Shown here: positions 48,465 to 64,000 of the stretch, piece by piece
Layout of the letters: each line of letters opens with the position of its first letter
Position numbering within the stretch: position 1 is the stretch's first letter
Assembly: GCF_011299555.1 (NCBI RefSeq)
Contig: NZ_CP049857.1
Span: 4,234,356-4,298,355 of the forward strand
Reading direction: 5' to 3'
DNA length: 64,000 bases
Source: Dysgonomonas sp. HDW5A
GTDB taxonomy: Bacteria; Bacteroidota; Bacteroidia; Bacteroidales; Dysgonomonadaceae
The notes under the pieces: generated by a model
What the model was told of the DNA's origin: nothing
What the model saw: only the letters and a program-made list of their open reading frames with translations
The model's database searches: none
Made by a program: the position numbers and the translations under genes

Positions 48465-48603
48465 ATTTTGCCGAAAAACATGTAAACAAAAAGAATAATC
48501 CGATGAAGCTATAAGTAACTGTCCAAATAATCAAAGTAGAACTTTTCATTGCTTTCTGACAGGTAATGTGAAATTGTATTATCAACTTTTAAAAATTAGA
48601 AAA

Positions 48604-49374
48604 ATGACACAGTTACAAATGATTAATCAAACTAAATTTATAGCTCAACAAGACGAAAATGTTTCCGCAATTTTTATGTATGGTTCATTTACCAAAAATG
48701 AAGGAGACAAATATTCTGACATCGAATTTTATATCTTTCTAAAAAGCAAAGAAAACTTCTCAGCAGAAAAGTGGGTAAATCAAATTTATCCGGTTGCTCT
48801 ATATTTCACAAATGAATATGGAAGCGAAGTCGCTATTTTCGAGAATATGATTAGAGGTGAATTTCATTTTTTAAAAACAGATGAAATTGGAATTATAAAA
48901 TCGTGGGAAGGAATTGTTTCGTTTAGTGATTTTGACCAAATGAACCTCATTGACAAGGACGGACTTTTATCGAAAACGCTTAATCTAATCAAAATAAAAT
49001 TGCCTGACAGAATAACAAACGAAAATATTTTGTGGTTAAGTCAATCACTATTGAATGTTTTGCTGACAACAAGTAATTTGATTAAACGGGGAGAATTTGC
49101 TCACGCTCATCAAAGTTTGTCAAACATCCATAAGTATTTGCTTTGGCTTATCAGGTTAGCAAATCAGCAAACTCAACATTGGGAAAGTCCAACCAAAAAT
49201 TTAGAAAAAGATATTGAAAAAATTTGGTATTCTGAATATAAAACAACGACATCGGATTCAACCCCGGAAAATTTAAACATAGCGGTTCAAAACTCATTAA
49301 AGTTATCAAATACATTATTTGACAAACTGAATGTAGAATCAAAACTGAAGCAAATTCTAAAACGAATTGAATAA
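48604..49374 (+). CDS. lnu: Lincosamide nucleotidyltransferase, LnuB/F/H type
   Basis: Transfers AMP to lincosamides, inactivating lincomycin and clindamycin. The N-terminal FMYGSFTKNEGDKYSDIEFY is nearly the LnuB/LnuF sequence: the GS pair at residues 27-28 and D39, E41 form the nucleotidyltransferase site. Conserved blocks EYGSEVAIFENMIRGEFHFL and KNLEKDIEK follow. The start at 48604 was chosen over 48568 because the family begins near this Met. The LnuA/LnuAN2 type is shorter and different. It sits within an apparent cassette inside the mobilizable element. Confidence 0.85.
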   Translation: MTQLQMINQTKFIAQQDENVSAIFMYGSFTKNEGDKYSDIEFYIFLKSKENFSAEKWVNQIYPVALYFTNEYGSEVAIFENMIRGEFHFLKTDEIGIIKSWEGIVSFSDFDQMNLIDKDGLLSKTLNLIKIKLPDRITNENILWLSQSLLNVLLTTSNLIKRGEFAHAHQSLSNIHKYLLWLIRLANQQTQHWESPTKNLEKDIEKIWYSEYKTTTSDSTPENLNIAVQNSLKLSNTLFDKLNVESKLKQILKRIE

Positions 49375-51155: not shown

Positions 51156-51686
51156 ATGAACAGTAAACAAACTGACAACGGTCAGCAAAAAAAGACAATG
51201 CCCGAAGACTGGTCACCTGTACCTTCGGTTGAAAGGAAACCCAGTACCCCAAAATCCAATAATGAAAGCAAAGAAGAACTTCTGAAAGAATTTCTTGGAA
51301 TGGAGGATTCCAGTGTAGTGGACATTGGAGCAAGTAAAGAGAATGCCAATAGAGGCATCGGACAAAGTATCCAAACAGAAGATGAGATTAATACAAAGGA
51401 TAGTATGCAAACAGAACCAGTGATAGATACACGTTCCACGGTGAAGCGTATAAGTAGCAAACAACGTAAAGAATCATTGGAGGAATATCAGCAAACATTC
51501 CTATCTGTTCCAACCCTCGAAGATCGCAAACCGGTATTTATAAGTCGAGAAATACGTGACAGTCTGGATGAGATTGTCCGTAAGTTGGGTGGACGAAGAA
51601 TGAGCGTATCGGGCTTTATCGAAAACCTTGCACGCCACCATTTGGAAATTTATCAGGATGACGTTGAGTTATGGAAGAAGCTCTAA
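51156..51686 (+). CDS. DUF3408 mobilization-associated protein
   Basis: A 176-aa protein with a long disordered, charged N-terminus and a C-terminal ribbon-helix-helix-like region (FISREIRDSLDEIVRKLGGR then MSVSGFIENLARHHLE). DUF3408 proteins accompany relaxase genes of Bacteroides elements and probably bind near oriT. It leads the rightward mobilization unit. Confidence 0.8.
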   Translation: MNSKQTDNGQQKKTMPEDWSPVPSVERKPSTPKSNNESKEELLKEFLGMEDSSVVDIGASKENANRGIGQSIQTEDEINTKDSMQTEPVIDTRSTVKRISSKQRKESLEEYQQTFLSVPTLEDRKPVFISREIRDSLDEIVRKLGGRRMSVSGFIENLARHHLEIYQDDVELWKKL

Positions 51687-51771
51687 TGTTTAGCTTCTAT
51701 CCATTGTAGAGTAAGTCTGTATAGTGTAACGACTTAGCTTTTAATGGAACATTTCATGTTCATTTTAGCGT

Positions 51772-51870
51772 AGCGAGGTTATGTTTTCATTACATGAAAA
51801 CCCTCGCTTTGGCTTATCAGCCAAAGGAGAAACCGCTCCCGATGGTCGCAGTTTCAGGGGTCACAGACCC
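51772..51870 (+). other. Candidate origin of transfer (cluster of hairpins)
   Basis: In the 224-bp gap before mobC lie four close dyads. They are AGCGAGG with CCTCGCT (51772-51808), enclosing GTTTTCAT-TAC-ATGAAAAC (51783-51801); then CTTTGGCT-TATC-AGCCAAAG (51807-51826); then GGGTC-ACA-GACCC (51858-51870). Such clustering directly upstream of MobC and relaxase genes is typical of oriT regions. The nick site is not identified. Confidence 0.5.
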
Positions 51871-51910
51871 TTTTGTTATTGCTTTTATTAGCAAATAAGA
51901 ATCGAAAAAA

Positions 51911-52300
51911 TTGAATCAAGACAATCAAGATAAACGAAAAGGAGGACGCCCAAAGAAGAGTTCTATTACTCGGAAAGACAAGACCATTGCTGTCTGCTTT
52001 TCCGAGCCGGAGTTCTATGCCATTCGGCATCGGGCTGCGAAAGCAAACCTCCCACTTAGTGTCTATTGTCACGATGCTATCCTGAACGGTGAAATAAAAG
52101 AACCGCTCAAAAAAGAAGAATTGGATACGCTTCGAAACCTCTCCAACATGGGAAATAATCTAAATCAATTGGTAAAAACCTCCAAATTTTTAAGTGTAAA
52201 GCGGCTTGAAAATATGGCTGTTCCATTATTGGAATCGATCCAAAATATAATAAATAAGCTCTCGGATGATTGGAAAAATAGTAAAAGGACGAAGCTTTAA
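51911..52300 (+). CDS. mobC: Mobilization accessory protein MobC
   Basis: A 129-aa relaxosome protein that helps open DNA at oriT. The KRKGGRPKK basic segment, VCFSEPEFYAIRHRAAKANL (ribbon-helix-helix) and LRNLSNMGNNLNQLVKTS match the MobC family. The start is TTG at 51911: no ATG occurs before the conserved LSNM, and a TTG start is the only way to keep the RHH. It overlaps the relaxase gene by 35 bases. Confidence 0.85.
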   Translation: MNQDNQDKRKGGRPKKSSITRKDKTIAVCFSEPEFYAIRHRAAKANLPLSVYCHDAILNGEIKEPLKKEELDTLRNLSNMGNNLNQLVKTSKFLSVKRLENMAVPLLESIQNIINKLSDDWKNSKRTKL

Positions 52301-53201
52301 GGGGTGTATTTCATATGTTTTGGCTGATAAAGATGCAAAGATTTTGGCGAGTGAAGGCGTGTTGGAGGTTGATACAAAATCCATCATCAACAGTTTTTAT
52401 ATGCAAAGTCTGCTGAATCCGAAGCTGTCTAAATGTGTCGGGCATATACCATTAGCATTCTCTCCCGATGACAAAGAGCGGATGACGGATCAGTTTATGG
52501 AACGCTTGGCAAAAGAATATATGAAGTTGATGGGCATAGAGAATACGCAATATATCATCGTTCGCCACAGCAATACTTCTCACCCACATTGTCATATTGT
52601 ATTTAACCGAGTGGATAACGATGGCAAAACTGTCTCCGACAGAAATGACCAATATCGTAACGAAAAGGTATGCAAGCAGTTGAAGGACAAGTATAATCTG
52701 ACTTATGGGAAAGGTAAGGATAAAGTCAATGTTCAGAAGTTGAAGGGAGCCGAGCAAACCAAGTATGAAATCTACCATGCGATCAAAACGATTCTTCCCA
52801 AAGCTAAGAATTGGCAACAGTTTGAAGAAGCTCTCAAACAAAAAGGCATATCTATAGAGTATAAGCGCAAAGGACAAACGGATGAAATACAGGGAATTTC
52901 GTTTAAGAAAGGAGAGCATTCGTTCAAAGGTTCGGAAATAGATCGGAAATTCAGCTATTCCAAGTTGAATATAGTGTTCAACGATAGTAGCTATATTCTG
53001 GAGCAACAACAAGAGCAACAGACGGCTATTCCAAAAGCAACAGAGACTAATTTGATAGAAAATATTGCTTCGGGGGTTGCCGATGCAGTATCAGGTATAG
53101 GTAGTTTGTTTGATATCCAACCATCAAATTACGATATGAATAAAGCCGATGCCTTAAGATTAAAAAAGAAAAAGAAGAAAATCAAGAGACCAAGACTCTA
53201 A
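52266..53201 (+). CDS. Relaxase / mobilization nuclease, MOBP/BmgA-like
   Basis: A 311-aa single-strand DNA nuclease that nicks oriT and leads the strand in transfer. The probable catalytic tyrosine is Y17 (GCISYVL), and the metal-binding HxH motif is HPHCHIVFNRV with H106, H108 and H110. The C-terminal third (about 240-311) is Lys-rich and poorly conserved. It lacks a helicase domain, as in mobilizable elements. Confidence 0.9.
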   Translation: MIGKIVKGRSFKGCISYVLADKDAKILASEGVLEVDTKSIINSFYMQSLLNPKLSKCVGHIPLAFSPDDKERMTDQFMERLAKEYMKLMGIENTQYIIVRHSNTSHPHCHIVFNRVDNDGKTVSDRNDQYRNEKVCKQLKDKYNLTYGKGKDKVNVQKLKGAEQTKYEIYHAIKTILPKAKNWQQFEEALKQKGISIEYKRKGQTDEIQGISFKKGEHSFKGSEIDRKFSYSKLNIVFNDSSYILEQQQEQQTAIPKATETNLIENIASGVADAVSGIGSLFDIQPSNYDMNKADALRLKKKKKKIKRPRL

Positions 53202-53236: not shown

Positions 53237-53740
53237 ATGGCACAATCAGTATCGAACGATGCCCTTTGGGAAAAACTTTCAGAGGTAGATAAGAAGCTGG
53301 AAAAATTTTCCGAAATGCAGAAATCATCAAATTTAAGAGATGAGCAGGCAATCATTAAGCCTGATTTTCAGAAAGAAAAAGACGAGATAGTCTCAAAATT
53401 AGAAAAGTATATACAAGGACTGGGAACACACTGCGATTCGCATTTCAAAGTTATTCATAAAGATATTGAGCAGTTAGAAAAGGATACGGAAGGAGTATAT
53501 AAAATTTTGTCTTATATGTCATCAATACTGAAAGAACCCGCAGAACAGCCTGCAATAAAGTCAGATGATAAAAAGTCCTTCTTGAATTTCAAATTATTCA
53601 AACTTCGGAAATCGTCTTTATTAATTGCTATTCTTAGCTTGTTGGTATTTATTTTGACACTATTTTGTATGAAACAGCAGAATGATTATGCACTCCTAAT
53701 GAATGAGTATTATAAGAAAGGAATTGAGTTAACAAGGTAA
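53237..53740 (+). CDS. Small coiled-coil protein with C-terminal membrane anchor
   Basis: No named family recognised. The 167-aa protein has a heptad-rich N-terminal two-thirds and one hydrophobic helix near residues 128-147 (SLLIAILSLLVFILTLFCM), then a short polar tail. It lies 35 bp after the relaxase gene and may tether the relaxosome or be an accessory mobilization protein (inference). Confidence 0.6.
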   Translation: MAQSVSNDALWEKLSEVDKKLEKFSEMQKSSNLRDEQAIIKPDFQKEKDEIVSKLEKYIQGLGTHCDSHFKVIHKDIEQLEKDTEGVYKILSYMSSILKEPAEQPAIKSDDKKSFLNFKLFKLRKSSLLIAILSLLVFILTLFCMKQQNDYALLMNEYYKKGIELTR

Positions 53741-53865
53741 TAAATTGAAGTCAATAACCTGGAAGTTTGTTGATTTCAATATGCGAACTTGTTTTTACTG
53801 ATTATTTAGGATTATTCGCTAACTTTGGAATTCCAAATTAATTCATTTTAGGAATATTAGCATCT

Positions 53866-56835
53866 ATGATAAGGGAAGCACAAATAGAAGAATTGTTTAT
53901 AAAAAAGTTACAAGAACTAAAATATACATATCGCAATGATATTCGTGATAAGAATTCTCTTGAGAGTAATTTCCGAGAGAAATTTGAGACTCTGAATAGA
54001 GTGAGATTGACAGAGAGTGAATTTGAGCGCTTAAAAGCGGAAATTATAACTCCTGATGTATTTGCAGCTTCAAAATTATTGCGAGACAGGAACTATTTTC
54101 AGCGTGAAGATGGGACACCTCTTCATTATACATTGGTAAATATAAAAGACTGGTGCAAAAATGAATATGAGGTTATTAATCAATTGAGAATAAATACAGG
54201 AAATAGCAATCAGAGATATGATGTAATTATTCTTATCAATGGTATCCCAGTGGTTCAGATTGAATTGAAAACTCTTGAGATTTCTCCTCGCAAAGCGATG
54301 CAACAAATCGTTGATTATAAAAATGATCAGGGAAATGGTTACAATAATACATTGCTTTGCTTTATGCAATTATTTATTGTTAGTAACAGAAGTAATACGT
54401 ATTATTTCTCTAACAACAAGAATCAGCATTTTAGTTTTAACGCTGATGAACAGTTCTTGCCTGTTTATCAATTTGCTGATGAGCAGAATAAAAAGATTAC
54501 TCATTTAGATTCTTTTGCTGAAAAGTTTTTACCCAAATGTACATTGGGTGAAATGATTAGTAAATATATGGTTTTGGTGGAAAGTGAACAGAAGCTATTG
54601 GTAATGCGTCCGTATCAAATTTATGCCGTAAAAGCTATTGTAAACTGTATTCATCAGAATCGAGGCAATGGCTATATCTGGCATACAACAGGAAGTGGAA
54701 AAACACTTACCTCTTTTAAAGCCTCAACATTGTTGAAAGACAATCCAGATGTAGAAAAATGTCTTTTTGTCGTGGATCGTAAAGACTTGGATAGACAAAC
54801 GCGCGAAGAATTCAATAAGTTTCAAGAGGGAAGTGTTGAAGAAAATACGAATACGGAGACTTTAGTAAGGCGCTTATTATCTACTGATTATGCGGACAAG
54901 GTAATTGTGACTACCATTCAGAAATTAGGATTAGCCTTGGATGGAAATAACAAAAGGAATTACAAAGAGCGACTAGAACCGCTAAGTAAAAAGCGAATTG
55001 TTTTCATTTTTGATGAATGTCATCGTTCGCAATTTGGTGAAAATCATAAGGCGATTAAAGAATTCTTTCCCAATGCTCAACTCTTTGGTTTCACAGGAAC
55101 TCCTATTTTTGATGAAAATTCAACTCAAAGTATAAGGGAAGGAGAATATGCCTCCAACAAAACAACCAAAGATATTTTTGAAAAGGAACTTCATGCCTAT
55201 ACGATTACCAATGCAATAGATGACAGAAATGTACTTCGTTTTCATATAGATTATTTTGAAGGGCAAGGTAATATAAAACCTAAAGTTGGAGAAACAATTA
55301 CCCAACAAGCTATTGTGGAAACTATTATAGAAAAACATAATGCTGCAACTAACTCTAAGCGTTTTAATGCTGTCTTAGCAACAGCCTCTATCAATAATGC
55401 GATAGAATACTACAATCTCTTTAAAGAGATTCAGAAACAAAAACAAAAAACAGACAAAGATTTCATTTCACTAAATGTGGCTTGTGTTTTCTCTCCTCCT
55501 GCAGAAGGCAATAAAGACATTCAGCAAATTCAGGAAGATTTGGAACAAGAAAAAGAAGACAATAAGCAGAATCCTGATGAAAAAAAAGCAGCTTTAAAAA
55601 GTATAATTAAAGATTATAACAAGCAATATGGTACCAATCATAGTATTTATGAATTTGATTTGTATTATCAAGATATACAAAAGCGTATAAAAGATCATAA
55701 ATATAGCAATTCGGATTATCATCATAAAAATAAGATTGATATTGTAATTGTGGTAGATATGTTACTCACTGGATTTGATTCTAAATATCTAAATACACTT
55801 TATGTAGATAAGAATCTAAAATATCATGGCCTGATACAGGCTTTTTCGAGAACTAATCGTGTGCTCAACGATACTAAGCCGTATGGAAACATTTTAGATT
55901 TTCGACATCAAGAAACATCCGTAAATGAAGCCATTGCATTATTTTCCGGAGAAAAATCAGATGAAGAGGCTAAGAAAATTTGGCTAGTAGATCCTGCACC
56001 GGTAGTAATTGCAAAATACAAAGAAGCTGTGGTTGCTTTGGGTGATTTTATGGCGCAAAATAATTTAGTCTGTGAACCGCAAGCAGTATATAATCTAAAA
56101 GGGGATGCAGCCCGAATAGCTTTTGTTAAGAACTTCAAGGAAGTTCAACGTTTAAAAACTCAACTTGATCAATATACAGATTTAGATGAAGACCAAAAAA
56201 CTGTAATTGAATCAATATTACCAGAAGAAAACCTTCGATCATTCAGAAGCTCATATATAGAAACGGCTAAACAGTTTAGGGAAATACAGCAAAAACAAGG
56301 GGATCAAGCTCCTGTCGAAGTGCAACAACTTGACTTTGAGTTCGTACTTTTTGCATCCGCAGTGATTGACTATGATTATATCATGGAATTAATTGCTGAT
56401 AGTACCCAAAAGAAACCAACTAAGCAAAAACTGACTAAAGGTCAAATTATTAGTTTGCTTAGCTCTAATTCTAATCTGATGGATGAGCAGGAAGATTTGA
56501 CGGAATATATCAATAGTTTAGATTGGAATAGTGGACAAGATGTAAATTCATTACGTGAAGGTTACGACACTTTCAAAATAGAAAAAAATGAGAAGGAGAT
56601 AGCAGAGATTGCAAATAGGCACGGGTTGCCGCCATCAATCTTAAAAGATTTTATAGATAAAATTATGCGTCGGATGATTTTTGACGGAGAGAAACTGACT
56701 GATTTATTGGAACCTTTAGATTTAAGTTGGAAAGAACGTCGTACAAAAGAACTCGCATTGATGATAGACTTAGTTCCTCATTTGAAAAAACAAGCTCAGG
56801 GACGTGAAATATCTGGGTTAGCAGCATACGAATAA
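53866..56835 (+). CDS. hsdR: Type I restriction enzyme R subunit
   Basis: The 989-aa motor and nuclease of a type I system. The N-terminal PD-(D/E)xK nuclease has D119, E133 and K135 (QIELKT). The Snf2-like translocase has Walker A GSGKT (residues 276-280), the DECH box at 383-386 and FTGTP as motif III. A C-terminal helical region binds HsdM. It heads an operon with a PrrC-like nuclease, hsdM and hsdS. A 125-bp non-coding gap separates it from the mobilization genes. Confidence 0.95.
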   Translation: MIREAQIEELFIKKLQELKYTYRNDIRDKNSLESNFREKFETLNRVRLTESEFERLKAEIITPDVFAASKLLRDRNYFQREDGTPLHYTLVNIKDWCKNEYEVINQLRINTGNSNQRYDVIILINGIPVVQIELKTLEISPRKAMQQIVDYKNDQGNGYNNTLLCFMQLFIVSNRSNTYYFSNNKNQHFSFNADEQFLPVYQFADEQNKKITHLDSFAEKFLPKCTLGEMISKYMVLVESEQKLLVMRPYQIYAVKAIVNCIHQNRGNGYIWHTTGSGKTLTSFKASTLLKDNPDVEKCLFVVDRKDLDRQTREEFNKFQEGSVEENTNTETLVRRLLSTDYADKVIVTTIQKLGLALDGNNKRNYKERLEPLSKKRIVFIFDECHRSQFGENHKAIKEFFPNAQLFGFTGTPIFDENSTQSIREGEYASNKTTKDIFEKELHAYTITNAIDDRNVLRFHIDYFEGQGNIKPKVGETITQQAIVETIIEKHNAATNSKRFNAVLATASINNAIEYYNLFKEIQKQKQKTDKDFISLNVACVFSPPAEGNKDIQQIQEDLEQEKEDNKQNPDEKKAALKSIIKDYNKQYGTNHSIYEFDLYYQDIQKRIKDHKYSNSDYHHKNKIDIVIVVDMLLTGFDSKYLNTLYVDKNLKYHGLIQAFSRTNRVLNDTKPYGNILDFRHQETSVNEAIALFSGEKSDEEAKKIWLVDPAPVVIAKYKEAVVALGDFMAQNNLVCEPQAVYNLKGDAARIAFVKNFKEVQRLKTQLDQYTDLDEDQKTVIESILPEENLRSFRSSYIETAKQFREIQQKQGDQAPVEVQQLDFEFVLFASAVIDYDYIMELIADSTQKKPTKQKLTKGQIISLLSSNSNLMDEQEDLTEYINSLDWNSGQDVNSLREGYDTFKIEKNEKEIAEIANRHGLPPSILKDFIDKIMRRMIFDGEKLTDLLEPLDLSWKERRTKELALMIDLVPHLKKQAQGREISGLAAYE

Positions 56836-56844
56836 GAAAGACAA

Positions 56845-57990
56845 ATGAACCAATCCTGTAAAATATATGAATACAAAACACTTCCTAATCTTGTTACAAG
56901 GTTACGAGATGACTTAAATAATTCAGATTTTGTATTACTTTATGCTTACAATGGAACTGGTAAAACTCGACTATCTATGGACTTCAAAGAAAAAGGGAAA
57001 GTGAAAAAGGAAGGACAGTCTGATACACTATATTTTAACGCTTTCACGGAAGACCTTTTTTCATGGGATAATGATTTGGAAAACGATACAAATCGTGTCC
57101 TCAAAATAAATGCAAGATCAAACTTTTTTAGCGGATTTAGAGAGTTAGCACTGGAAGAGAAAATATTTGCTTATTTGGAGAGATATGCTGAATTTGATTT
57201 CAAAATTGACTATGAAAAATGGGAGGTCTCTTTTAGCAAAGTAATTAAAAATCCCATACATAAATCGAATTCAGAAGTACCTGAGTATATCGTTCAGAAT
57301 AATATAAAAATTTCTCGTGGTGAAGAGAATATATTTATATGGTGTGTTTTTCTTGCTATTTGCGAATTGACTATCGATGGGCAAGAATCTTATAATTGGG
57401 TTAAATATATTTATATTGATGATCCAATTTCTTCATTAGATGATAACAATGCAATTGCTGTAGCAAGTGATTTGTCAAAGTTAGTAAGAAGTGGAATTAA
57501 CAAAGTTAAAACAGTTATTTCTTCTCATCACAACCTCTTTTTTAACGTGATGTGTAATGAGTTAAAGAAAAATAGATGTAAACGTTATTTTCTGCATAAA
57601 AATGGAGCTGATGGACATACCTTGCGAGCAACGGATGATGCTCCATTCTTCCACCATGTTGCACTGTTAAGCGAGTTGAAAGATGCGGTTGATTCAGATA
57701 AGATCAATACTTATCATTTCAATATGTTACGCAGTATTATGGAAAAAACATCTACATTCTTTGGTTATGATGACTTTTCGAAATGTATTCATGGAGTAGA
57801 TGATGAAACTCTGTATGCACGTTCATTGAACTTGTTAAGTCATGGAAAATATTCCATTTACGAACCAATAGAAATGGGTATAGACAACAAAGAACTTTTT
57901 AAAAACATACTACAAGCATTTCTCGAAAAATATGAATTTTATCTTCCTGAAATACTTGTTGAAGAAACAAAACAATCCAGCCTATTATGA
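56845..57990 (+). CDS. prrC: PrrC-like anticodon nuclease (AAA_13-type ATPase)
   Basis: A 381-aa ATPase with an ABC-like head: Walker A YNGTGKT (35-41), signature SRGEE (157-161), Walker B YIYIDDPISSLDD (D192-D193) and H-switch SSHHN (H228, H229). In its C-terminal domain R296, E300 and H333 match the spacing of the R-x3-E-x31-H triad of PrrC (320, 324, 356), which cuts tRNA-Lys in E. coli. PrrC is held silent by its type I enzyme and released when a phage inactivates it. Here it lies nine bases after hsdR and overlaps hsdM by four, so it is part of the operon. Target tRNA is unknown. Confidence 0.75.
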   Translation: MNQSCKIYEYKTLPNLVTRLRDDLNNSDFVLLYAYNGTGKTRLSMDFKEKGKVKKEGQSDTLYFNAFTEDLFSWDNDLENDTNRVLKINARSNFFSGFRELALEEKIFAYLERYAEFDFKIDYEKWEVSFSKVIKNPIHKSNSEVPEYIVQNNIKISRGEENIFIWCVFLAICELTIDGQESYNWVKYIYIDDPISSLDDNNAIAVASDLSKLVRSGINKVKTVISSHHNLFFNVMCNELKKNRCKRYFLHKNGADGHTLRATDDAPFFHHVALLSELKDAVDSDKINTYHFNMLRSIMEKTSTFFGYDDFSKCIHGVDDETLYARSLNLLSHGKYSIYEPIEMGIDNKELFKNILQAFLEKYEFYLPEILVEETKQSSLL

Positions 57991-59612
57991 CATTACAAGA
58001 TCAAAAGCAATTGGGTAAAACCCTTTGGGATATAGCAGATCAACTGCGGGGAGCGATGAATGCGGATGATTTCCGTGATTATATGTTGTCATTCCTATTT
58101 CTCCGATACTTGTCTGACAACTACGAAGAAGCAGCCAAGAAAGAATTGGGTAGAGATTATCCACAATTAAATGAAGTAGATAAACACACTGCTTTAGGAA
58201 TATGGTATAAAAATAATGACGCAGACATATTAGATTTTGAAAAACAGATGCGTCGGAAAGTCCATTATGTTATAAAACCAGAATTTTTATGGAGTAATAT
58301 TGCGGAAATGGCTCGGACTCAAAATGGAGAGTTGTTAGAGACGCTTGAAAATGGTTTTAGATATATTGAAAATGAATCATTTGAAAGTGCTTTTCAAGGT
58401 TTATTTTCAGAAATCAATTTGAACTCAGAAAAGCTAGGCAAAATACCTTCTGAAAGAAATAAAAAGCTTTGTGTCATTATTCAGAAAATAGCTGAAGGAA
58501 TAGCTAAGTTTTCTACCGATACAGATATTTTAGGTGACGCATATGAATATCTTATTGGACAATTTGCTGCTGGTTCTGGAAAAAAAGCAGGAGAATTTTA
58601 TACACCTCAACAGTTATCTACTATTTTATCTAAAATTGTCATTTTGGATAGCCAAAATCCGGCATTAGGCGAAAAGAATAAATTAGATAAGGTGTTGGAC
58701 TTTGCCTGTGGATCAGGTTCTTTATTACTGAACGTCCGCAGACAGATGGGCGACAGTAATGGAAGCATAGGCAAAATATATGGACAAGAGAAAAATATCA
58801 CGACATATAATCTTGCCCGAATGAATATGCTCCTACATGGACTTAAAGATACTGAGTTTGAAATTCATCATGGAGACACCTTATTAAATGACTGGGATAT
58901 TCTGAATGAGATGAACCCCGCAAAAAAAATGGAATTTGATGCAATTGTTGCTAATCCTCCATTTAGCTTAAAATGGGAGCCTAATGATACATTGGCAGAA
59001 GATTTTCGATTTAAAAGTTATGGCATTGCACCAAAATCTGCAGCTGACTTTGCATTTTTATTACACGGTTTTCATTTTCTCTCAGGAGAGGGTACAATGG
59101 CGATAATATTGCCACATGGAGTTTTGTTCCGCAGTGGAGCCGAAGAACGTATTCGTACAAAATTACTGAAAGATAATAACATAGATACTGTTATTGGTTT
59201 ACCTTCTAATTTGTTTTTTTCAACAGGTATTCCGGTTTGTATTTTGGTATTGAAAAAGTGCAAAAAGTTTGAAGATGTCCTTTTCATTAACGCCAGTGAG
59301 CATTTTGAGAAGGAGAAAAGACAGAATCGTTTACGAGAAGGTGAAGATGGAAAACCTAATGATATTCAGAAAATAATTGAAACCTACCAATTCAGGAAAG
59401 AGGAGGATCGCTACTCTCGAAGAGTTTCATTAGATGAGATTGAGGAGAATGGATATAATCTGAATATATCTCGGTATGTAAGTACCTTTGTAGAAGAAGA
59501 ACCAGTTGATATTCATGCTGTAATGGCTGAGATCAAAGACCTTGAAGCTAAACGTGCAGAACTTGATAAAGAAATCGAAGTTTATCTCAAAGAATTGGGA
59601 TTAGTTCCTTAA
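57987..59612 (+). CDS. hsdM: Type I restriction enzyme M subunit
   Basis: An N6-adenine methyltransferase of 541 aa. The SAM-binding motif I is DFACGSGSLL (from D238) and the catalytic motif IV is NPPF (323-326). The N-terminal HsdM helical domain (RDYMLSFLFLRYLSDNYEE) is complete. The start overlaps the PrrC-like stop (ATGA). Confidence 0.95.
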   Translation: MTLQDQKQLGKTLWDIADQLRGAMNADDFRDYMLSFLFLRYLSDNYEEAAKKELGRDYPQLNEVDKHTALGIWYKNNDADILDFEKQMRRKVHYVIKPEFLWSNIAEMARTQNGELLETLENGFRYIENESFESAFQGLFSEINLNSEKLGKIPSERNKKLCVIIQKIAEGIAKFSTDTDILGDAYEYLIGQFAAGSGKKAGEFYTPQQLSTILSKIVILDSQNPALGEKNKLDKVLDFACGSGSLLLNVRRQMGDSNGSIGKIYGQEKNITTYNLARMNMLLHGLKDTEFEIHHGDTLLNDWDILNEMNPAKKMEFDAIVANPPFSLKWEPNDTLAEDFRFKSYGIAPKSAADFAFLLHGFHFLSGEGTMAIILPHGVLFRSGAEERIRTKLLKDNNIDTVIGLPSNLFFSTGIPVCILVLKKCKKFEDVLFINASEHFEKEKRQNRLREGEDGKPNDIQKIIETYQFRKEEDRYSRRVSLDEIEENGYNLNISRYVSTFVEEEPVDIHAVMAEIKDLEAKRAELDKEIEVYLKELGLVP

Positions 59613-59659
59613 TTTTTTTGCTTTTCTGAAATCCTTAATGCTACAGATTAAGAAAATAA

Positions 59660-60862
59660 ATGTCAACAATGAAAGAAGAAAATAAAAAAAAGGGCTATGT
59701 GCCAAATTTGAGATTTCCGCAATTTGAAGGGGAGTGGAAGAAATATAAAGTATCAGATGTTTTAGAGTTCTTTCCAACTAATTCTTTATCATGGGATCAG
59801 CTAGAATATGGAACAGATAATATATACAATTTGCATTATGGACTAATTCATAAAGGTCTCCCGACTCAAATAGAACTAGATAAATGCTCTTTACCAAACA
59901 TTCGGGAGGAATCTGGTCCTAAAAATTATGTTTTTTGTAAAGATGGTGATGTTGCTTTTGCAGATGCATCAGAAGATACAAATGATGTTGGAAAAGTTGT
60001 TGAATTCTTAAACTGTAAAAATAGGAATATAGTATGTGGTTTGCATACAATTCATGGTAGAGATAAAAACAATTTAACCATTAAGGGCTTTAAGGGGTAT
60101 GCTTTTTCTTCGAAAGTATTTCGGCACCAGATTAGAAGACTATCTCAAGGGACAAAAATATATTCAATTAGTTCAAAAAATTTTAAGGATATCTCTATTG
60201 GAATTCCTTCGAAAGAAGAACAATATAAAATTGCAACTTTGCTAAGGCTTCTTGATGAACGCACTGCAACCCAAAACAAAATAATAGAGGATTTGAGGTT
60301 GTTAAAGAGTACGATAAGCAATCTACTTCTTCGAAACCCAAATTGGAAGAAATATAAGATTAAAGATATTGGAGAATTAGGAAGGGGGCGTGTAATAAGT
60401 ACAACAGAAATAAAAAGTCAACAAACCCCCAAATATCCCGTATATTCGTCTCAAACATCGAACAATGGAATTATGGGATACCTTGATACATATGCTTTTG
60501 AAGGAGAGTATTTAACGTGGACTACTGATGGGGCTAATGCTGGCACCGTGTTTTATCGTAAAGGAAAGTTTAACTGCACCAACGTTTGTGGTACGATAAA
60601 AGTTAACGATCAGCACAATCCATATTTTGTTTCACAATGTTTGCAATTGGTTACAAGGAAGTATGTATCAACAGATCTGGCTAATCCAAAACTTATGAAT
60701 AATACAATGGCTTCGATTGAAATTACTCTCCCTGATAAAGAAACACAAGAATTTATTTCCGACTTGCTTTGGTGCATTGATGAAAAATATAGTCTTGAGA
60801 ATGAGTTAGTAAGTCGACATATGGATGTGAAAAAATATTTGCTTTCAAATCTGTTTGCTTGA
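59660..60862 (+). CDS. hsdS: Type I specificity subunit S (expressed copy)
   Basis: A 400-aa DNA-recognition subunit with two target-recognition domains (about residues 20-190 and 225-380) separated by conserved helical spacers (ERTATQNKIIEDLRLLKSTI). It follows hsdM by 47 bp and has its own ATG, so it is the expressed copy. Its first TRD begins just inside a 43-bp repeat shared in inverted orientation with the second hsdS at 61967-63007. Confidence 0.93.
   Translation: MSTMKEENKKKGYVPNLRFPQFEGEWKKYKVSDVLEFFPTNSLSWDQLEYGTDNIYNLHYGLIHKGLPTQIELDKCSLPNIREESGPKNYVFCKDGDVAFADASEDTNDVGKVVEFLNCKNRNIVCGLHTIHGRDKNNLTIKGFKGYAFSSKVFRHQIRRLSQGTKIYSISSKNFKDISIGIPSKEEQYKIATLLRLLDERTATQNKIIEDLRLLKSTISNLLLRNPNWKKYKIKDIGELGRGRVISTTEIKSQQTPKYPVYSSQTSNNGIMGYLDTYAFEGEYLTWTTDGANAGTVFYRKGKFNCTNVCGTIKVNDQHNPYFVSQCLQLVTRKYVSTDLANPKLMNNTMASIEITLPDKETQEFISDLLWCIDEKYSLENELVSRHMDVKKYLLSNLFA
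59697..59739 (+). repeat. hsdS inversion repeat A, left copy
   Basis: 43 bases encoding VPNLRFPQFEGEW, identical to the reverse complement of 62967-63009. Recombination here would exchange the first TRDs of the two hsdS copies. Confidence 0.9.
60266..60289 (+). repeat. hsdS inversion repeat B, left copy
   Basis: 24 bases in the central spacer (encoding ATQNKIIE), identical to the reverse complement of 62531-62554. Exchange here would swap second TRDs with the inverted copy. Confidence 0.85.
60307..60318 (+). repeat. hsdS inversion repeat C, left copy
   Basis: GAGTACGATAAG, found inverted at 61405-61416 in the silent half-gene A; could allow a swap of the second TRD, though 12 bases is short. 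Confidence 0.55.
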
Positions 60863-60863
60863 T

Positions 60864-61418
60864 CTATACAAATAAATTGTCTAAAAAACATCGTTTTTCG
60901 GTTGACAATAGGTAGAGGTAATCAGTTTCCATTTTAATCTTTTTATCTAATGCCGTGAAAAGGTTTGAAAGACTATTCTGCACTTTAACCTCAGGAATAT
61001 ACATTGGCATAGACTCTACTTCAGAAATGTAATGACGTTTATGGTCACTTGATGTAAGATCAAGAAAAGAGAGGTATTCAAAAACATATTTGATATTTAC
61101 GTTAGACCCCGAAGTCAATATTTTTATCGCTGATGACTTAACCTTGAATGGAAAATTAACATACTTCAAATCCATAGTAAAGTCATCAAATATTATGCAA
61201 TCTCCTTTATCATAAATGCCATAGTTCTCAGAGGTATAACCTAATACAAAGGCTTTATTGGCTGTTAATACTGGAATTAGGGATATATCGTTTTGGTAAT
61301 CTGTATTTTCCACTATATACTTAGTAGGTTGCTCATAATCAAGAATATCTTTTATTCGTTTTGTTTCAGCATTAGACTTGTCAATTTCCGTAAATAGAGT
61401 ATGTCTTATCGTACTCAA
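60864..61418 (-). CDS. Silent hsdS half-gene A (second TRD only)
   Basis: A 184-aa open frame in inverted orientation, one base from the end of hsdS. It contains one TRD and the C-terminal tail (ALDKKIKMETDYLYLLSTEKR), preceded by spacer residues STIRHTLFTEIDK that match the hsdS spacer. The frame in fact continues upstream of the ATG to about 61446 (IRDYISLLS). It lacks a first TRD, so it is probably a donor cassette, not a working subunit. Confidence 0.8.
   Translation of the reverse strand: MSTIRHTLFTEIDKSNAETKRIKDILDYEQPTKYIVENTDYQNDISLIPVLTANKAFVLGYTSENYGIYDKGDCIIFDDFTMDLKYVNFPFKVKSSAIKILTSGSNVNIKYVFEYLSFLDLTSSDHKRHYISEVESMPMYIPEVKVQNSLSNLFTALDKKIKMETDYLYLLSTEKRCFLDNLFV
61405..61416 (-). 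repeat. hsdS inversion repeat C, right copy
   Basis: Inverted copy of 60307-60318 at the 5' end of half-gene A. Confidence 0.5.
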
Positions 61419-61430
61419 GAGTGAAATATA

Positions 61431-61974
61431 ATCTCTAATTAAAGGACTAACTCACTTTGCATTAAACGGGGAACAGGCTAATGTCAGATTAAAGGATTGT
61501 GTTGCTTGTAACTCTTCTGCACTAACAGAAAGTGAATTTGAGGGAATCGTCGGGCTGCATCCAGTATATGGTGCAACAGGCATTATAGCATATTCGTCTC
61601 AATACGCTGTGAATGAGGATTCTATTTTAGTTATTAAAGATGGAGCCAGCGTAGGCAGGGTGCAATATGTTACGGGAAAATATTCTGCAATAGGCACTCT
61701 CAATTATCTGACAGCAAAGAATGGTTTTTCGCTCAAATACATCTACTACCTTTTACGTTATTTTAATTTTGATAAATACAAAGTAGGCTCCGGCATACCT
61801 CATATCTATTTCAAAGACTATGGTAACGAGTTGATCTACTGCCCATCTATCAAGGAACAATATAAAATAGCCCGAATGCTCTCACAGGTGGATAAAAAAC
61901 TTGATTTAGAGCAAATTTTGTTAGATACCTATTCCTTGCAGAAACAGTATTTGCTAAAAAATATGTTTATATAA
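61431..61974 (+). pseudogene. Silent hsdS half-gene B (second TRD only)
   Basis: A continuous frame reading SLIKGLTHFALNGEQANVRL to FI at 61974 with one TRD and the hsdS tail (KEQYKIARMLSQVDKKLDLE, QKQYLLKNMF). There is no true start; a GTG at 61609 is internal to the TRD. It lies head to head with half-gene A and tail to tail with the inverted hsdS, overlapping its stop by eight bases. A donor cassette is the best reading. Confidence 0.75.
61432..61446 (+). repeat. hsdS inversion repeat D, left copy
   Basis: 15 bases (TCTCTAATTAAAGGA) at the start of half-gene B, inverted copy at 62507-62521 in the second hsdS. Confidence 0.6.
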
Positions 61975-63007
61975 AGAGGTTCTGTAATAGATAGATTTTT
62001 TGTTTCTGATACACTAAGATTGCGGATTTCTCTAATTCTATCTTTAATATTATTTTGTCGAGTGTATCTGAAATTTCTTTTTGATTCAACAATGATGGCA
62101 TAGGAATGCAGAAATGAGATAAATCTTTCTTTTGTATATTAGGAAGTCCGCTACCTATGCGCAATGCCATTATCTGAGGTTCATTAGCTTTCAAATAGTG
62201 AAAAAGATACCTGTCATCTATATCTTTGTCAATATCATCTAATGTGTAACAATGCCCCCCACTCCAAAAAGGGACTTCATTATACTGTACATATCCACAA
62301 GAATTACCTCCTTCACTGATAGATATTGTATTCGCCTTAGTATTATATGAATGATAAAAGCCCGAAGGAGTAATACCTCCATTCATTACATAATATTTAT
62401 CATCATCCAATAATTCAGTCCTATTTATCTGCTCACCTTTTTTAATTTGACAAAATTCTCCTAATTTTCTGTATTTATCAGACTCTCCTAAAAGATAGGT
62501 ATAAATTCCTTTAATTAGAGATTTATATTGCTCTATTATTTTGTTTTGGGTTGCTATACGTTCGTCAAGAAGAGATAGTAGTGAAGCTATTTTACTTTGT
62601 TCTGGTTGAGTTGGAATGTAAACTTCTATTTGTTCTATTGTTTTCTTGGATAGGCTTGGTACTCCAGAAGCTTCATTGTATCTCATCCAATCTATATTTT
62701 GAAAAACGTAAAAAACAAACTTGGGTAAAGCCTTTTTATATAAATAAGTATAAAATAGCGTATCAACAGTCCAGAGTTTACCTGAATAATAAAAGGGTTT
62801 ATTAATGGTTCCTTTTCTTCCAATACAAACAGTTTCTCCATCTATCAAATATTCATTAACAGAAGTCATATATCCTCCCGTACCAAATACTGGAATTTCA
62901 CCTGATTTAAGGTGTTTGTAATCGCGTCCATTTCCAATCGTTAGTATATTACTTATTTTTGAAAGTTTCCACTCCCCTTCAAATTGCGGAAATCTCAAAT
63001 TTGGCAC
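61967..63007 (-). CDS. Second hsdS, inverted, probably silent
   Basis: A 346-aa frame with two TRDs (about 15-165 and 185-320) and the same spacers (ERIATQNKIIEQYKSLIKG). It begins with GTG at 63007 inside repeat A, without the 13 N-terminal residues of the expressed copy and without an obvious ribosome site or promoter. It is therefore likely a storage copy that gains expression by inversion. Confidence 0.8.
   Translation of the reverse strand: MPNLRFPQFEGEWKLSKISNILTIGNGRDYKHLKSGEIPVFGTGGYMTSVNEYLIDGETVCIGRKGTINKPFYYSGKLWTVDTLFYTYLYKKALPKFVFYVFQNIDWMRYNEASGVPSLSKKTIEQIEVYIPTQPEQSKIASLLSLLDERIATQNKIIEQYKSLIKGIYTYLLGESDKYRKLGEFCQIKKGEQINRTELLDDDKYYVMNGGITPSGFYHSYNTKANTISISEGGNSCGYVQYNEVPFWSGGHCYTLDDIDKDIDDRYLFHYLKANEPQIMALRIGSGLPNIQKKDLSHFCIPMPSLLNQKEISDTLDKIILKIELEKSAILVYQKQKIYLLQNLFI
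62507..62521 (-). repeat. hsdS inversion repeat D, right copy
   Basis: Inverted copy of 61432-61446, in the central spacer of the second hsdS next to repeat B. Confidence 0.6.
62531..62554 (-). repeat. hsdS inversion repeat B, right copy
   Basis: Inverted copy of 60266-60289. Confidence 0.85.
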
Positions 63008-63009
63008 AT
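62967..63009 (-). repeat. hsdS inversion repeat A, right copy
   Basis: Inverted copy of 59697-59739, at the 5' end of the second hsdS. Confidence 0.9.
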
Positions 63010-63077
63010 TAAGCCTATTTTATACTCAAATCCTTTTATGTATATTCTTGTGATTAATAATATAAAACCAGATTAAT

Positions 63078-64000
63078 ATGGCAGAAAAAACAAAAATTAG
63101 TACAGTTATCAACTTATGGAAAGAAGACAAAAAGCAGTATGTGAAAAAATCCAGTTATTCGGCTTATATGCTTCTAATTGAGAATCATTTATTGCCAACT
63201 TTTGGACATAAGCATGAAGTGCATGAAGCAGATGTTCAGGAGTTTGTATTTGCTAAGTTAGATGAGGGATTAAGTCAAAAAACGATTAAGGATATCTTGA
63301 TTGTACTGAAAATGATCCTAAAGTTTGGCATGAAGAATAAAGTCTTCGAGTATCAGCAATTTGATATCCAGTTTCCAACAGAAAGAGAAAATAATGGGAT
63401 TGAGGTGCTTAGTAAAAGCAACCAAAGAAAAATTATGAATTATGTACAAGAGCATTTTACATTCAAAAACTTAGGAATTTATATTTGTTTGAGTGCTGGA
63501 ATACGTATTGGCGAAATTTGTGCTTTGACATGGAACGAAATTGATACGGATATGGGGGTTATCCACATTCGAAAAACGATACAGCGGATCTATATTATCG
63601 ATGATTCTGACAGGCATACAGAACTTATCCTCGATAGCCCTAAAACCAAAAATTCTATTCGAGATATTCCAATGAGCCGAGATCTTTTAAAAATGCTAAA
63701 ACCGATAAAAAAAATAGTGAACAACTCCTTTTACGTTTTAACTAATGACATGAAACCTACCGAACCACGTACTTACAGAAATTACTACAAACGATTGATG
63801 AAAGAGTTGGATATGCCAGAACTGAAATTTCATGGATTACGTCATAGCTTTGCAACAAGGTGTATAGAGAGTAATTGTGACTATAAAACTGTTAGCGTAA
63901 TTCTAGGGCACTCGAATATCAGTACAACGCTGAATCTATACGTTCATCCTAATATGGAACAAAAAAAGAAGTGTATTGACCAAATGTTTAAAGGATTGAG
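63078..64000 (+). CDS. Tyrosine recombinase, probable hsdS invertase (3' end beyond window)
   Basis: At least 307 aa starting MAEKTKISTVINLWKEDKKQ. A core-binding domain (about 10-100) precedes the catalytic domain with R143 (AGIRIGE), H252 and R255 (HGLRH), and the nucleophile Y288 (LNLYVHP). All key residues are in the window; only a few terminal residues are missing. It differs from the tandem integrases in keeping the first Arg. Position 70 bp from the inverted hsdS suggests it drives hsdS inversion, although an element integrase is the alternative. Confidence 0.88.
   Translation, partial: MAEKTKISTVINLWKEDKKQYVKKSSYSAYMLLIENHLLPTFGHKHEVHEADVQEFVFAKLDEGLSQKTIKDILIVLKMILKFGMKNKVFEYQQFDIQFPTERENNGIEVLSKSNQRKIMNYVQEHFTFKNLGIYICLSAGIRIGEICALTWNEIDTDMGVIHIRKTIQRIYIIDDSDRHTELILDSPKTKNSIRDIPMSRDLLKMLKPIKKIVNNSFYVLTNDMKPTEPRTYRNYYKRLMKELDMPELKFHGLRHSFATRCIESNCDYKTVSVILGHSNISTTLNLYVHPNMEQKKKCIDQMFKGL

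Follow-up and report, generated by a model that had tools for sequence, protein, structure and literature searches.

A PrrC-family protein encoded within a type IC restriction-modification operon that carries an inverted-repeat hsdS cassette in Dysgonomonas

This study deals with a 64,000-nucleotide stretch of the genome of Dysgonomonas sp. HDW5A (GCF_011299555.1, NZ_CP049857.1), called here the window; all coordinates are window positions. The window contains a type I restriction-modification (R-M) operon with an additional gene, prrC (56845-57990, plus strand), squeezed between the genes of the restriction subunit and the methyltransferase: it begins 9 bp past the stop of hsdR and overlaps the start of hsdM by 4 nt. 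The operon continues with several hsdS sequences in alternating orientations and a recombinase gene. PrrC is a well-studied guard that punishes phages which disable a restriction enzyme. Were a restriction enzyme to change its own target, unmodified sites would arise on the chromosome of its host, and here one gene cluster joins such a putatively changing enzyme with PrrC. The predicted toxin would need to stay quiet whenever its partner changes identity, which is a testable conflict.

An initial annotation, made from the letters alone, had noticed an ABC-type ATPase between hsdR and hsdM and had taken it for PrrC. Both claims held. The open reading frame was confirmed at exactly 56845-57990 on the plus strand, and by its sequence the 381-residue product is a PrrC-family protein with intact catalytic and ATPase motifs, predicted to be a latent anticodon nuclease. 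It scores 462 bits over residues 7-369 with the PADLOC PrrC model, with which an Escherichia coli-type PrrC from a plasmid (L037) reaches 490 bits, and it is 36% identical to the latter (BLASTP, E 2e-58). The match to Pfam AAA_13 is 50 bits; an NCBIfam scan of the protein yielded no family close to its cut-off. The N-terminal part (residues ~1-264) has the Walker A, signature, Walker B and H-loop motifs of an ABC-ATPase; a helical, HEPN-like domain follows (~265-365). Walker A (AYNGTGKTR, residues 34-42; 56944-56970, plus strand) is conserved in an alignment of 246 rows, made up of the window protein, two lists of the best 120 homologues and five loci. So is a block NAFTEDLFxWDNDL (residues 65-78; 57037-57078, plus strand), which also occurs in E. 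coli PrrC (EcoPrrC) and which, as a guess, is a candidate for the 'PrrC box' of 15 residues. Between the window and Dysgonomonas macrotermitis the dN/dS of prrC is 0.10, which indicates constraint by purifying selection.

The ABC-ATPase fold is common, and PtuA and Rad50 structures rank first when the whole predicted model is submitted to a fold search. The ATPase might, thus, be RloC, Septu PtuA or another ABC-type defence protein. We consider this extremely improbable. The PtuA model gives 20 bits as compared to 462 bits for PrrC. RloC shares with the window protein the ABC-ATPase head and the same catalytic residues (R692/E696/H737 in G. kaustophilus; PMC2610378), but it contains a zinc-hook insert, is seldom linked to R-M genes and responds to DNA breaks (PMC2610378, PMC3874168). 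RloC proteins comprise 658-897 residues (PMC2610378); the window protein, with 381, shows no long insert of the coiled-coil/zinc-hook kind in the PrrC alignment.

The catalytic residues deserve a closer look. The initial annotation had pointed to R296, E300 and H333, to an R-x3-E spacing as in PrrC, and to an E-to-H distance of 33 versus 32 in EcoPrrC (E324-H356). All of this was confirmed. The codons of Arg296 (57730-57732), Glu300 (57742-57744), Arg326 (57820-57822) and His333 (57841-57843), all on the plus strand, pair in a MAFFT alignment with R320, E324, R349 and H356 of a 396-residue E. coli 'anticodon nuclease'; R320, E324 and H356 form the published triad of EcoPrrC (PMC2610378). Conservation is almost complete: R296 and E300 are kept in 245, R326 and H333 in all of the 246 rows. 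Among 96 loci from many phyla, the window included, the corresponding numbers are 96 (R296), 96 (E300), 93 (R326) and 94 (H333); the exceptions are found in L067, which has a split frame, L094, L044 and L045. R326 and H333 are spaced as in the HEPN motif (R-x6-H), and a survey of the HEPN superfamily includes the nuclease domains of PrrC and RloC (PMC3710099). The C-terminal domain, when predicted alone, is a helical bundle. In a fold search with it, HEPN entries (1wol, AbiV, HEPN toxins) appeared near the top, with weak scores that were tied with those of unrelated bundles. The fold-search lists contained no RloC or PrrC entry and are uninformative on identity; a sequence search for a solved structure of any PrrC found none.

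The guard itself is of a known type, and so is its partner. We read the latter as a type IC, EcoR124-like enzyme from the domains and scores of its subunits. HsdR (53866-56835, plus strand; 989 residues) contains an EcoR124_C domain (220 bits). In the PDB, five sequences reach E<=1e-5; every one is an HsdR chain of 1038 residues with 383-385 bits, and one is labelled EcoR124II, whereas the others we take to be EcoR124 as well. HsdM (57987-59612, plus strand; 541 residues; N6_Mtase and HsdM_N) scores 296 bits with the M subunit of EcoR124II versus 43 bits with that of EcoKI. Its best PDB match, 3lkd (373 bits), is a type I M chain that bears no system name. prrC has been described as invariably linked to type IC systems (PMC3874168).

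Behind hsdM the operon becomes unusual. An hsdS of 400 codons (59660-60862, plus strand; Methylase_S) occupies the expressed position. It is followed by an inverted silent hsdS fragment (60864-61451, minus strand; a 195-residue open frame, the 184-residue form of which has no Pfam match), a silent target-recognition fragment (61432-61974, plus strand; 180-residue open frame, Methylase_S) and an inverted, silent full-length hsdS (61967-63019, minus strand; 350-residue open frame, Methylase_S in 61967-63007). The cassette ends with a tyrosine recombinase (63078-63998, plus strand; Phage_integrase, 105 bits), of which 307 residues are seen before the frame reaches the window end. Exact inverted repeats connect these pieces. 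Arm A at the 5' end of hsdS (43 bp; 59697-59739, plus strand) is 100% complementary to arm A' (62967-63009, minus strand). Two central pairs are shorter: B and B' (24 bp; 60266-60289, plus, and 62531-62554, minus) and C and C' (17 bp; 61430-61446, plus, and 62507-62523, minus). In 100 first-order Markov simulations exact inverted repeats reached 19 bp at most (mean 12.7), which makes the 43-bp pair exceptional and the 17-bp pair, taken alone, unremarkable.

A sister genome, G003, which from its genus and the gene layout shared with locus L093 is taken to be D. macrotermitis DSM 27370, tells how such a cassette may behave. HsdR, PrrC and HsdM are there 98.4-98.6% identical to those of the window, and the flanks 53702-59741 and 62966-64000 have the same orientation. 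A segment of 1.2 kb between them (61391-62604; 92% nucleotide identity), however, is reversed. The HsdS in the expressed position of D. macrotermitis is only 28% identical to its counterpart in the window, but 64% to the silent full-length hsdS of the window; part of the sequence that is silent in one genome, therefore, occupies the expressed position in the other. The initial claim that PrrC is linked to an inverting type I enzyme is thus borne out by the inverted hsdS copies, the repeats, the recombinase and the rearranged sister cassette. Of course, the cassette could be a fossil in which inversion has ceased and one specificity has become fixed. This is very improbable, since the 43-bp arms are perfect, the recombinase is constrained (dN/dS 0.075), an open hsdS frame of 385-413 residues occupies the expressed position in five out of five cassette loci, and a segment has been inverted between the window and D. 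macrotermitis.

Near-identical HsdR, PrrC and HsdM beside a very different HsdS amount to a natural experiment, and it points to the constant subunits. Since HsdS is replaced while HsdR, PrrC and HsdM are conserved, PrrC would dock on the constant part of the complex, that is on HsdR and possibly HsdM, and not on the target-recognition half of HsdS; one toxin could then serve every isoform. In E. coli, PrrC is silent within the Hsd complex, and an anti-PrrC serum precipitates HsdR (PMC3014915). For its activation in extracts, GTP is needed together with DNA whose EcoprrI sites are unmodified and with either Stp or a high dTTP level (PMC3014915). By analogy, the PrrC of the window would be activated via an AND-gate, which takes unmodified cognate sites as one input and high dTTP or an anti-restriction factor as the other, with GTP. 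Inversion of hsdS would supply the first key, because it would expose unmodified sites on the host chromosome; switching cells would survive for lack of the second one. That latency during switching holds through the missing second signal is, by this analogy, the best-supported reading. According to the initial annotation, the toxin has to remain silent with each HsdS isoform. This need follows from the arrangement, as unmodified sites are required for activation in E. coli and switching would expose them on the cell's own chromosome; it is a real problem for the cell, and the 98%-identical HsdR, PrrC and HsdM beside an HsdS of 28% identity strengthen the case.

Taken as a whole, we consider the following explanation probable: a PrrC-family protein resides in a type IC operon whose hsdS cassette is partly inverted in a sister genome; it would dock on the constant part of the Hsd complex, which would keep it silent, and, once a phage disables the complex, it would be released via the AND-gate to cut the anticodon of a tRNA, likely tRNA-Lys. 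tRNA cleavage, target and latency of this particular PrrC are predictions from sequence and from its E. coli relative. In a bolder version, the toxin would be armed by the switch itself. Each hsdS inversion would turn the chromosome of the host into unmodified substrate, the signal that licenses PrrC, and the toxin would stay armed until re-methylation is complete. The operon would thereby link epigenetic switching with a built-in cull, in which translation is shut down in those cells that are too slow to methylate or that switch during inhibition of the enzyme by a phage. We think this distinctly unlikely. Either way, the locus renders two questions testable: which part of the Hsd complex silences PrrC, and how a cell distinguishes an attack by a phage from its own DNA that has just become unmodified.

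Features of the host and of the protein bear on the predicted target. Of 50 tRNA matches in the host, the 30 with the highest scores include one tRNA-Lys(CUU) gene and two for tRNA-Lys(UUU); the latter two have the loop CUUUUAA. CUUUUAA is presumably the same anticodon loop as that of E. coli tRNA-Lys. Asp287 of EcoPrrC, which affects wobble-base preference (PMC3014915), pairs with D265 according to MAFFT or with D264 according to BLASTP. An HEPN-type RNase of this kind might instead cut another RNA, be it another tRNA, as the initial annotation had considered, an rRNA or an mRNA. The tRNA-recognition loop of the window protein is 2 residues shorter than that of EcoPrrC and poorly alignable, as the differing partners of Asp287 illustrate; moreover, PrrC substrates may vary, since the recognition sequence varies among PrrCs (PMC3014915), and RloC with the same triad cuts tRNA-Glu and tRNA-Gln in Acinetobacter (PMC3874168). 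Yet an acidic residue occupies the D265 column in 89 of the 96 rows (76 D, 13 E), and the two host tRNA-Lys(UUU) genes have the loop CUUUUAA. A target other than tRNA-Lys appears rather unlikely to us, and tRNA-Lys would be the likelier substrate of the predicted anticodon cleavage.

Several known systems resemble the one in the window, each in a different way. The E. coli prr locus (EcoPrrC/EcoprrI) shares the PrrC family, the catalytic triad, the ABC-ATPase motifs and the tight operon with type IC hsdRMS. Its order, however, is hsdM-hsdS-prrC-hsdR with one hsdS, in contrast to hsdR-prrC-hsdM-[invertible hsdS]-recombinase in the window, and the PrrC identity is 36%. As anchors for EcoPrrC served two E. 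coli plasmids, L037 and L038, which were chosen by published features; that L037 matches the published EcoPrrC is deduced from triad, order and length. The published gene order and PrrC length agree with both (PMC3014915). Both plasmids also carry a terminase and late promoter-activating genes in addition to the hsdMS-prrC-hsdR operon and are, thus, phage-plasmid-like; in L038 the next gene past hsdR, on the opposite strand, is annotated as '3'-phosphatase'.

Closer relatives of the window PrrC, of the same subfamily, are found in loci of the order hsdR-hsdS-prrC-hsdM: on E. coli chromosomes (L034-L036), an IncC plasmid (L003) and a Parabacteroides plasmid (L004). In the four that were compared, identities to the window are 51-71% for PrrC, 67-79% for HsdR and 69-78% for HsdM. 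These loci differ from the window by a single hsdS directly upstream of prrC; inverted hsdS copies were not detected in them. The IncC plasmid has a different tyrosine recombinase ~2.8 kb beyond hsdM; its PrrC operon also contains a gene for a TrlF-family ATPase and one for an RNA-binding domain protein between hsdR and hsdS (L003 2925-6712). The inverting type I systems of pneumococci and Bacteroides fragilis, finally, share with the window the expressed hsdS, the inverted silent copies and the locus-encoded recombinase (PMC7394358). A term search of the main text of that REBASE survey found neither PrrC nor anticodon mentioned (PMC7394358), and a search of the literature, mostly short of full texts, yielded no description of PrrC coupled to an inverting hsdS. 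PrrC guards and inverting type I systems are both of known kind; their stable combination is new.

How rare the combination is can be estimated from gene order. A scan of GTDB with one genome per species revealed 312 confirmed PrrC loci. In the best 80 of these, the nearest upstream R-M gene was hsdS in 75, hsdR in 2 and none visible in 3, S fragments below 100 residues being counted only where the contigs of L069 and L094 end; 72 of the 80 had hsdS before and hsdM after prrC. The two loci with hsdR first belong to Bacteroides acidifaciens (L047) and D. macrotermitis (L093), and both have inverted hsdS downstream. As the phmmer searches for hsdS relied on a restricted choice of queries and some of the contigs were short, far-downstream or very divergent inverted copies could be missed. 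Among 199 relatives of the window genome, 31 matched the PrrC model at E<=0.001, mostly weakly. Seven exceeded 300 bits, the own genome included: four with the cassette (the window, G003, G018 and G023) and three (L044, L045 and L046) without a cassette in view. Searches at the level of the order (E<=1e-60; 4 of 393 genomes) and the phylum (5 of 395), again with the own genome counted, added six loci (L159-L164), all with hsdS beside prrC. Two of the cassette-less loci, L044 and L045, encode divergent PrrC-like proteins (~34% identity); the adjacent HsdR and HsdM share 70-73% identity with those of the window. These PrrC-like proteins keep the columns of R296 and E300 but not that of R326, and they possibly form a further PrrC subfamily.

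In all five cassette loci prrC follows directly after hsdR. A tree of HsdR, PrrC and HsdM, built from 26 of the 96 loci, a selection of Bacteroidota and outgroups of which 25 have HsdM, unites these five distinct loci on one branch with 100/100 support; the clade covers Dysgonomonas, two other genera of the same family and B. acidifaciens. As the five form one clade, we infer that the arrangement of PrrC with an invertible hsdS arose once. A quick tree of PrrC alone (96 rows, from which L093, being on the same contig as L041, L034, being close to L036, and frames below 280 residues had been left out) gives no single supported branch for the five cassette loci; it suggests two changes, and the fixed locus L004 stands unresolved with them. 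In the simplest history, a type IC operon already guarded by PrrC would have acquired, a single time within Bacteroidales, a module that shuffles hsdS; with the loss of its fixed hsdS, prrC would have come to lie directly after hsdR. One clade across several genera has, in any case, retained PrrC and the inverting hsdS together, with the residues of the toxin intact.

Has the toxin adapted to its changing partner? A residue signature of phase-variable PrrCs that would support an altered toxin was not found in 91 rows: only E116 is fixed in the five cassette loci and rare elsewhere; of the 86 other rows two have it, and one of these comes from the plasmid locus L004 with its fixed hsdS. The 86 comparison rows exclude the five distant rows L037, L044, L045, L046 and L160. 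The near absence of clade-specific change fits an ordinary guard as in E. coli, to which the adjacent invertible hsdS would be incidental, without any effect on latency or activation. The distribution of the recombinase is in line with this idea. A search of the 199 genomes disclosed the recombinase family in 17 places of 15 genomes: four with PrrC, four in type I cassettes without PrrC (L152, L153, L154 and L156, two of them in one genome), three where no R-M gene was found (L155, L157 and L158) and six at contig ends, L165-L167 among them. Type I loci that lack PrrC can, thus, have the recombinase and the hsdS cassette, which means that the two modules can be separated. Such an incidental neighbourhood has, in our opinion, about an even chance, which overlaps with that of our preferred explanation, as both share identity, latency and docking. 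What speaks against it is the requirement for unmodified cognate sites in E. coli (PMC3014915): a change of specificity would bear on PrrC, whether the protein itself has changed or not.

The PrrC-less relatives show further peculiarities. In the genome G017 with a PrrC-less cassette, HsdM is 53% identical to that of the window, as compared to 89-99% in three other genomes with a PrrC cassette. The gap between hsdR and hsdM is filled with an accessory gene in L152 (7574-8494; Pfam DUF5655), L154 (~5.5-6.4 kb; the gene resembles that of L152 by eye) and L156 (5364-6368; RhuM family). In B. acidifaciens, where PrrC is present, an extra gene lies between hsdM and hsdS (L047 12741-13823). The type I loci that bear the cassette apparently carry an accessory slot.

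The recombinase of the window recurs in another genus, with 100% identity in L136 (G039:C6:90-1010) and 99% in L137 (G085:C130), each time at a contig end. No PrrC was found in the six genomes with the recombinase at contig ends, these two included, in a search that had no positive control and in which G085 was 51% complete; G039 also lacked an HsdM match at E<=1e-40. The near identity across genera suggests that the cassette was recently transferred between them.

The surroundings of the operon may be mobile, too. A mobilisation module (DUF3408, NikA-like protein and MobA relaxase) lies at 51156-53201, just 5' of hsdR, and the nucleotide match to D. macrotermitis ends at 53702 (0.7 kb upstream compared). 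From this end of the match, the R-M/PrrC locus may be the cargo of a mobile element. Some 4.5 kb 5' of hsdR, at 48568-49374, the window encodes a LinB-like nucleotidyltransferase (LinB-like_C, 85 bits); genes of this kind are associated with resistance to lincosamides. Rfam and tRNA scans of the window gave no matches. Genes with DUF3732 and ABC-3C middle component 3 are located where the same chromosome record begins (L002 476-2991); provided that the record is circular, they are candidates for a further defence system close to the operon.
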